DNA of 64,000 nucleotides from Fuerstiella sp. Its GTDB lineage: Bacteria > Planctomycetota > Planctomycetia > Planctomycetales > Planctomycetaceae. The stretch spans positions 1 through 64,000 of the forward strand of contig JALHMY010000006.1 in assembly GCA_022843805.1 (NCBI GenBank). The letters are read 5' to 3'. Of the stretch, positions 13,846-16,608 are shown one piece after another (position 1 is the first letter of the stretch; every line of letters begins with the position of its first letter). The notes under the pieces were generated by a model. The model was given only the letters and a program-made list of their open reading frames with translations. It was not told the DNA's origin and did no database searches. Position numbers and translations under genes: made by a program.

Positions 13846-14727
13846 GCCAGCGCCTTTTTGAACCAGAGGGACAAATGATTGCGGGAGTCTTCGTCTGCAA
13901 TATCAGGAAACGCCTTATTGTCCGTTTCTGTGCAACAGAAAACGACTGATTGGAAGCCGACAGCAGCAATTTTTTGGAAAACACACGAACTTCCGAGGGA
14001 ATTCCGTCGTCAAATCAGAAGTCCAGGCAACAACCATCATGTTGGTGATGTGGTCTGGAAGCCACTCCTGCAGTTAGTGTGGTCCCGCCTTCTTTCCTTT
14101 CAAAATACCAGTGACTCTTTTCCCGCAAAGTGTTTCCTGTAAGTGTCTCGATTTTGACCTTTCTGACGTCGCTTTGATAACAGTTGGTCGACAATGGATC
14201 GGTCAAAAATGCACCAGAGTGGTACAGGAATGATGAGTACTGGACGGATTCGGTAAGTTTTGAACCACTGCGCGTGCGGAACAGGGGGCGCGTGCGGAAC
14301 AGGTGCGCGTGCCGATCGGGTGCGCGTGCTGAACGGGTCAGGTAAATCGCCTTGAGAAAATTTTGATATTTCCCGCGTTTTTCCTTTTAATTTCACATTT
14401 TTGTAAGACCGGCGTGTTTGTTTTACGTAATTACAACGGGACCGGGGCGAGCAAATCGGCTCGCTAAAGTCGCCAGAATTGAGTTGCGGACGTGAAAAAT
14501 CGACTGTGACAGCTGCTGCAAGATGAAATGTGCTATCGCCGAAAGAATCGGTTTGCAGAATGGCACAGGCTTTGCCAGTAAATATTTCACTGCTTGTTTA
14601 TGGACTGCCTGATCTATTGTGGCAGCCCACTTCTCCGGGGCAACAGGCGTTTCACGATCCCCGGTCGAATTTGAGTGAATTAGGACTGACCATTTTCCGT
14701 CGTATGTTGGTCAGAAGGAGAAGCGAA
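13846..14727. other. long intergenic/leader region before the sigma factor gene
   Basis: About 880 bp without a supported gene. It holds the 17-bp tandem repeat at 14270-14338, then an A/T-rich stretch (14345-14440) containing TTTACGTAATTAC, which is a plausible promoter zone though no clean -35/-10 pair is evident. The sigma-factor reading frame is open back to 14530, but that extension has no family-like sequence. A long untranslated leader for the sigma factor is possible. Confidence 0.45.
14270..14338. repeat. four-copy 17-bp tandem direct repeat
   Basis: Copies at 14270-14287, 14288-14304, 14305-14321 and 14322-14338 follow the pattern GCGCGTGCGGAACAGGT, with the first 8 bases invariant and drift in the rest. 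The period is 17 bp, with one 18-bp unit. It lies 390 bp upstream of the sigma factor start, so it may be an array of protein-binding sites or a slippage-derived microsatellite. Confidence 0.8.
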
Positions 14728-16392
14728 ATGTCCCGTTATCAGACTCCAGCTCTGCAGACTCTTGCCGAGCAGCAGGTTCGGTTTGCTCCTAACACCGTGA
14801 GGATGGCACAGCTGGAGGATGCGGAGAAATTCCTGCTGGAGGTCGACCTCAGGGAAACATTTCCTTATGCGGATGTCTGCGAGCGTATTACGGGATACAG
14901 GCCTTCCAAAACGAAGATGCCCGATATTCCGGGCGCACATTTGTCTCACGATCTGCGATGTCTGGTGGAAGATCTGTCAGCAAGCCTGAAGATCGACGCG
15001 GAGACGATGGCGGAGCCGGTTCTGACGGTGGATGAGGTGAGTGAGCGGCTCAATATATCCACCAAAACGGTTTGTCGATGGCGAGACAAGGGGCTGCCGA
15101 GTCGCTGGTTCATGATCAATGGAAAAAAGCGGTTGGGTGTGAGGGAGTCATCTTTGCAAAAGTTTATGCAGCTGCATGAAGAAGAAGTTGCTCGCGGTCA
15201 GGCTTTCACGCAGCTGACCGACTCGGACCGGGAGCAGATCATTAATGAGGCGCGACATCTGTCTGCACAGGGATTGCGACTGACGGACGTAAGTCGGCGT
15301 CTTGCTCAGCATTTTGGGCGTGCCGTGGAGACGATTCGTTACACGTTGAGGGATTATGATATGGAGTATCCGGAGAACGCGATCTTTGTCACGACAGAAC
15401 GGCCGATGTCCGTTGAGCATAAGGAACTGGCCTTTGACCTTGCTCAGCAGGGTATTCGGATTCCCGATCTTTCGCGTCGTTTTGGTCGTTCCCGGGCCGT
15501 GATTCAGTCGGCGCTGGCGGAAGTTCGCGCGATGCGGCTGAAGTCGATGGTGATGGAGTTTATCGACAACGACGAGTTTCGACGGGAGAAGGCTGAAAAG
15601 CGAATTCTCACGATGCCGCCCGAGTTGTCTGTTTCTGAAGGCCCCGTTCGGCCTCCTTCCGGGCTGCCCGCGTATCTTGCCGAATTATACAAGGTGCCAC
15701 TGCTGACCCGGGAGCAGGAGCAATACTATTTCCGTCGCATGAACTTTCTGAAGTTCCGTTTTGTGGAACTGCAGAAGTCGTTGAATCCAAAGCGACCGGG
15801 TACTCGCACTCCGGCTGAAATGGAAAAGCTGCTGCGGCAGATTGCTGAAGTGAAGAACCTTCTGATCCGTTCGAACCTGCGGCTCGTGGTGTCGATTGCC
15901 AAGCGTCATATGAAAGCGGGTGTGAATTTCTTTGAGCTGGTCAGCGACGGAAACATGTCGCTCATTCGAGCGGTTGAGAAATTCGACTATTCACGCGGCA
16001 ATAAGTTTTCAACTTATGCATCGTGGGCCATCATGAAGAATTTCGCACGCTCTGTCCCTGCTGAGAACACTCGACTGGACCGTTTCCGCACGGGTCAGGA
16101 GGATATTTTTGTACAGTCCACTGATGAAAGAACGACAGGTTTTGCGGATGAGCGGATCAACCGGGCTCAGCGAAGTGCCATTCTGGAGATGATGGAAGAG
16201 CTGAATGGTCGGGAGCAGAAGGTAATTGCGTGCCGGTTTGGTCTGGACGGGGGTTCAGAACCAGAAACTCTTGAACAGGTTGGCGTGCGACTGGGGGTCA
16301 CGAAAGAGCGAGTCCGCCAGATCGAAGTGCGTACTCTGGAGAAACTGCGCCGCATTGCTGAGCGTCGGCGAGTGGATATTCCCGGAATTTAG
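14728..16392 (+). CDS. sigma-70 family RNA polymerase sigma factor with N-terminal helix-turn-helix domains
   Basis: A 554-residue transcription factor. Residues about 313-345 resemble sigma region 1.2 (LPAYLAELYKVPLLTREQE), 377-444 are region 2 (NLLIRSNLRLVVSIAKRHM, then DGNMSLIRAVEKFDYSRGNKF), and 483-544 are region 4, with the recognition HTH in GVRLGVTKERVRQIEVRTLE. A region 3 is not recognisable: only about 38 residues separate regions 2 and 4. Before the sigma part there is a MerR/excisionase-type HTH (99-138, LTVDEVSERLNISTKTVCRW) and two homeodomain-like HTH segments (about 166-207 and 229-270). I chose ATG 14728 because AAGGAG lies 8 nt upstream. The promoters it reads are unknown. 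A terminator follows, so it is monocistronic. Confidence 0.85.
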   Translation: MSRYQTPALQTLAEQQVRFAPNTVRMAQLEDAEKFLLEVDLRETFPYADVCERITGYRPSKTKMPDIPGAHLSHDLRCLVEDLSASLKIDAETMAEPVLTVDEVSERLNISTKTVCRWRDKGLPSRWFMINGKKRLGVRESSLQKFMQLHEEEVARGQAFTQLTDSDREQIINEARHLSAQGLRLTDVSRRLAQHFGRAVETIRYTLRDYDMEYPENAIFVTTERPMSVEHKELAFDLAQQGIRIPDLSRRFGRSRAVIQSALAEVRAMRLKSMVMEFIDNDEFRREKAEKRILTMPPELSVSEGPVRPPSGLPAYLAELYKVPLLTREQEQYYFRRMNFLKFRFVELQKSLNPKRPGTRTPAEMEKLLRQIAEVKNLLIRSNLRLVVSIAKRHMKAGVNFFELVSDGNMSLIRAVEKFDYSRGNKFSTYASWAIMKNFARSVPAENTRLDRFRTGQEDIFVQSTDERTTGFADERINRAQRSAILEMMEELNGREQKVIACRFGLDGGSEPETLEQVGVRLGVTKERVRQIEVRTLEKLRRIAERRRVDIPGI

Positions 16393-16580: not shown

Positions 16581-16608
16581 TTGCCTGGAAGAATCCGATT
16601 GTTATACT
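16581..16608 (+). promoter_or_regulatory. sigma-70 type promoter for the tRNA-tuf operon
   Basis: TTGCCT (16581-16586) and TATACT (16603-16608) are separated by 16 bp. The start point would be near 16615, about 22 nt before the first tRNA. This is the clearest housekeeping promoter in the window. Confidence 0.75.

Follow-up and report, generated by a model that had tools for sequence, protein, structure and literature searches.

Architecture of the sigN gene product

The window analysed here is a stretch of 64,000 nucleotides of Fuerstiella sp. DNA (contig JALHMY010000006.1), and all coordinates refer to its forward strand. Positions 14728–16392 hold a gene, named sigN in this work, that encodes a sigma-70-family factor of 554 residues with an N-terminal helix-turn-helix (HTH) array. 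Its start is the ATG at 14728, with AAGGAG ahead of it; the frame remains open further upstream, but orthologues nevertheless align from residue 1–4. From the N-terminus, SigN is composed of a helical N-domain, a winged HTH of the MerR/BldC/excisionase type, two three-helix HTHs, a region-1.2-like segment, sigma region 2, a disordered linker and sigma region 4. The predicted segments are supported by AlphaFold models: that of the whole protein, built from 46 orthologues, has a pLDDT of 83, and that of the N-terminal 300 residues alone one of 90.

A preliminary description of this locus had claimed three HTHs followed by sigma regions 2 and 4, which Pfam and AlphaFold confirm; structure prediction, named there as the check on the N-terminal segments, returns them as HTH folds. 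Its account of the N-terminal part holds for the three HTHs but overlooked the N-domain (residues 1–95) and the region-1.2-like segment (residues 313–352).

The N-domain (14728–15012), conserved across classes and carrying the motif RITGYRP, is predicted to form four helices (7–19, 22–38, 47–55 and 69–87); a Pfam scan gives no match to it. At two other loci, L210:4588-5730 and L217:3783-4919, an N-domain of about 82 residues with an ITGYR-like motif is fused straight to sigma regions 2 and 4, the three HTHs being absent.

The winged HTH (residues 96–150, 15013–15177) adopts an a-a-b-b-a fold at residues 98–149 of the model. Pfam HTH_17 falls just short of its cut-off at 98–148 (26.5 bits vs 27), while HTH_23 passes; the BldC chains 6amk and 6ama match residues 88–135 with E-values of 2.5e-4 and 7.7e-4. 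By both fold and profile, this module is of the MerR/BldC type. The second HTH (residues 164–214, 15217–15369) is HTH_38-like, with AlphaFold helices at 165–180, 185–196 and 200–213, placing the motif within 165–213. The third (residues 227–273, 15406–15546) is homeodomain/Hin-like: it resembles HTH_28 and HTH_23, matches structure 2lvs (E 1e-6) and has helices at 229–240, 245–252 and 256–273. Weaker Pfam HTH matches are found at 162–207 and 235–261.

Among 28 relatives, Pfam finds HTH_23 in 26, HTH_17 in 25 and HTH_38 in 21. In the orthologue alignment, recognition-helix residues R117, W118 and R119 of the first HTH and E201, T202 and R204 of the second are invariant, those of the third being less conserved. 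Solved DNA-binding structures match the whole array only weakly. Among the best matches to the HTH pair are paired-domain and Tc3- or TnsB-type transposase HTH pairs, themselves weak (1u78, probability 0.84; 1k78, probability 0.97) and with E-values that are not significant; unlike these transposases, SigN has no transposase domain. A mobile-element origin of the array was rejected, as plasmid and phage records gave no match to it and it occupies a conserved chromosomal place.

Sigma regions and the missing region 3

The region-1.2-like segment (residues 313–352, 15664–15783) was recognized by alignment to solved principal sigma factors: residues 313–351 align to region 1.2 of HrdB and SigA, the Pfam r1_2 profile scoring 17.1 bits, below its cut-off of 22; the AlphaFold model, too, has helices here. 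Sigma region 2 (residues 373–443, 15844–16056) is matched by Sigma70_r2 (PF04542) at 379–437 with an E-value of 4e-14, above cut-off, and forms helices over 360–442 in the model. It is the most conserved part of SigN (36 of its 71 residues are invariant across the 46 orthologues) and retains the core-binding and melting residues NLRL, DGN and FSTYA.W. With such conservation and the key residues NLRL and FSTYA.W kept, SigN is likely a working sigma factor within its class.

Region 4 (residues 471–548, 16138–16371; helices 471–547) matches Sigma70_r4 (PF04545) at 489–541, with an E-value of 3e-19, above cut-off, and resembles region 4 of RpoD. In region 2.4, on the other hand, the invariant WAIMKNFAR of SigN stands against WWIRQAITR in the two RpoDs. 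Residues of region 2.4 govern recognition of the -10 element, and -10 recognition by SigN should therefore differ from that of RpoD.

In place of region 3 lies a linker (residues 444–470, 16057–16137), of pLDDT below 50 and low confidence over 444–472. Neither a Pfam scan for Sigma70_r3 (PF04539) nor the AlphaFold model contains region 3 in SigN. The same scan detects it strongly, with E-values of 1e-15 to 1e-22, in three other sigma factors of the genome (two RpoD-like factors and one of 306 aa), and its absence from SigN is thus real. Both the lack of region 3 and the short connection first proposed for regions 2 and 4, of some 38 residues, are borne out, the linker measuring about 27–40 residues here. 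The same genome also encodes a 325-aa paralogue (L211:5295-6269) with sigma regions 2 and 4 and neither region 3 nor the HTH array; similar short paralogues are present in other relatives.

Distribution and genomic setting

A profile built on the N-terminal 300 residues finds SigN in 196 of 199 Planctomycetia genomes and in all 112 of 112 genera, nearly always as a single copy: sigN is a core gene of Planctomycetia. A sample of 40 near-relative genomes, the window's own among them, yielded full-length orthologues in 35, with one of the 35 split over two frames; most of the five genomes without an orthologue are less completely assembled. In the window's family, one genus (g233; G403, G423 and G429) gives very weak matches or none, a possible loss. 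Across the phylum, a sample of 292 genomes contains 82 with a SigN homologue.

Directly downstream of sigN lie tRNA-Thr-Tyr-Gly-Thr, tuf, tRNA-Trp, secE and nusG, so that the tRNA/ribosomal cluster noted beside the gene at the outset is real. This order is kept in roughly half of 80 named loci, as counted by hand from the locus listing; the remainder have other neighbours or contig ends. Cotranscription was rejected as the reason for the linkage: the cluster has its own sigma-70-like promoter, TTGCCT-N16-TATACT (16581–16608), separate from sigN and conserved in a genus-level alignment. An Rfam scan around sigN returned tRNAs only.

Loss of the sigma part outside the class

In several families outside the class (f60, f76, f79 and f10), and separately in one member of f77, only vestiges of regions 2 and 4, or nothing of them, remain while the array is retained. 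The gene in the first four families often follows one that we take, from its sequence, to be mqnA, likewise in intact members of f54. Among intact proteins, identity in region 2 exceeds identity in the array in 154 of 156 pairs; among decayed ones this is true of just 15 of 171. Two separate losses of the sigma part are needed on the tree, which comes from a quick search with SH-aLRT support only. The HTH array stays conserved in two lineages in which regions 2 and 4 decayed or vanished, and is thus kept for its own sake. In the phylum-wide sample, genomes with decayed forms hold one copy each, so that no intact second copy is seen in them.

A three-box element upstream of sigN

Ahead of sigN in the class we found an element of the form GAAC-N16/17-CGTC-N8/9-CGTA. 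Its spacings are fixed: CGTC follows GAAC by 20–21 nt, and CGTA stands 32–33 nt from GAAC and 11–13 nt after CGTC. Of 81 regions upstream of sigN, 41 contain the element; dinucleotide shuffles give 0.1 on average and a reversed control gives none. The 81 regions are related loci whose counts are not independent, the pattern was discovered in the very sequences counted here, and it also seeded the trained motif search. It lies about 70–440 nt ahead of the start codon, a position that suits a promoter or an operator. The copy in the window is degenerate, TCAC-N16-CGTG-N9-CGTA-ATTACAA at 14393–14436, its three boxes spanning 14393–14429. No such element was found ahead of SigN homologues outside the class. 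A 17-bp tandem repeat (GCGCGTGCGGAACAGGG) also occurs upstream of the gene, in four copies at 14269–14338; this repeat was rejected as an operator, not being seen upstream of sigN in the five nearest relatives.

A search of 40 genomes for the strict three-box form places it mainly ahead of sigN, to which it is nearly private, with the remaining sites near control level. The element could alternatively be an ordinary ECF promoter, with GAAC as -35, CGTC as -10 and 16–17 bp between them; a different ECF sigma factor would then read it, and sigN would stand in a cascade without self-regulation. We regard this as quite possible, if somewhat short of an even chance. The spacing and sequence fit what is generally known of ECF promoters, and the GAAC and CGTC boxes look more like one of these than like a promoter of SigN's own, because an RpoD-like region 4 predicts a TTGACA-like -35 element. 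Moreover, the two-box form is somewhat enriched elsewhere, with 35 sites in the 40 genomes vs 10 in the reversed control; on these same counts, a large ECF regulon of the two-box element was rejected. Against an ordinary ECF promoter stands the third box, CGTA, whose conservation is close to that of the first and which is foreign to ECF promoters, and the three-box form was not found as a regulon. This alternative bears on the element alone and can hold together with our main explanation of the protein.

SigN among known sigma factors

SigN belongs to the sigma-70 family by its region 2 and region 4 profiles and its conserved region 2 residues. Its region-1.2-like segment and its regions 2 and 4 align with the corresponding parts of Group 1 factors (RpoD, SigA, HrdB; E 7e-35 for HrdB, 8k60), but it has neither region 3 nor region 1.1, and an N-terminal HTH array instead. 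Against the NCBIfam RpoD models it stays below cut-off as well, scoring 145.6 bits with TIGR02393, for which the cut-off is 354. The best NCBIfam match, at 152.7 bits, is MzaA of the MZA defence system (NF041931); it arises through the sigma region, its best stretch covering region 2 only, and is far below the cut-off of 800 for membership. BldC, which binds direct repeats head to tail (PMC5859096), is a lone winged HTH of 68 residues, whereas the winged HTH of SigN is one module of a sigma factor.

Closest in outline are the Planctomycetes ECF groups with N-terminal extensions, the former ECF87–89, whose existence is known and which a review describes as unstudied (PMC8103513); that extended sigma factors exist in Planctomycetes is hence already on record there. 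SigN might be an ordinary member of these groups and nothing more, a possibility towards which we are rather sceptical. As far as the review's description of them goes, they belong to the same phylum as SigN and, like it, combine a long N-terminal extension with sigma regions 2 and 4 but no region 3 (PMC8103513). Possession of regions 2 and 4 without region 3 is itself the mark of an ECF factor, and SigN scores 93.7 bits with TIGR02937 (sigma70-ECF superfamily), for which the cut-off is 42.9. Speaking against simple membership, SigN also carries an RpoD-like region 4 and a segment like region 1.2. Our literature search found no description of the HTH-array content, the class-wide single-copy conservation, the sigma-loss lineages or the upstream element, which is not proof of novelty; the SigN family is apparently unstudied.

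Proposed function of SigN

In our joint reading, to which we give an even chance, SigN is an ancestral alternative sigma factor of Planctomycetota that anchors the holoenzyme through a DNA-binding array of its own, with probable self-control. Region 2 would bind core RNA polymerase, regions 2.4 and 4 would contact the -10 and -35 elements, and the HTH array would keep the holoenzyme bound at a particular site nearby. As SigN has no region 3, and with it no extended -10 contact, binding of a neighbouring site by the array would be a plausible replacement, one that would act like a built-in activator. That the HTHs serve composite promoters or make the factor its own activator, as suggested at the outset, is consistent with the invariant recognition-helix residues, the class-wide conservation and the survival of the array. 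The only candidate site found for SigN is the element ahead of its own gene: through its three boxes, SigN probably controls its own transcription. In its evolutionary form the proposal is more tentative, and we rate it a little under even: the array of an ancestral own-activator sigma factor would bind an upstream or start-site element while the sigma regions recruit polymerase, replacing region 3, and two lineages would have become pure DNA-binding regulators by losing regions 2 and 4. Where the sigma part is gone, the array would act as a plain DNA-binding regulator.

It seems unlikely that the N-terminal 300 residues are instead mainly sensing or autoinhibitory, their HTH folds making protein contacts and the sigma part reading ordinary promoters. 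ECF factors with regulatory extensions are known, and the extended Planctomycetes members are unstudied according to the review's description (PMC8103513); the N-domain, which has no Pfam match, could be a sensor, and the L210 and L217 proteins join it to sigma regions with no HTHs between. But recognition-helix residues are among the invariant ones, and the array outlives the sigma part, where inhibiting that sigma is impossible. Least probable to us is a chain of two functions, with the array acting by itself as a repressor, above all of sigN, and the sigma part independent: the near privacy of the three-box element to sigN and the two lineages that lost the sigma part and retained the array speak for it, but essentially all of the class has kept the fusion intact, a hint that the parts cooperate.

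For additional contacts with DNA, sigma factors normally depend on activators that are separate proteins. If our joint reading is true, a whole class would possess, in a core single-copy sigma factor with three DNA-binding modules of its own, a sigma factor and activator in one chain, an idea open to direct test in Planctomycetia that can be cultured. The decayed forms offer a natural experiment, in which a sigma factor turns into an ordinary regulator. Ten of these forms (L193, L195-L200 and L203-L205) share a conserved DxxETDLRWA motif ahead of the vestigial region 2, possibly pointing to a new function.
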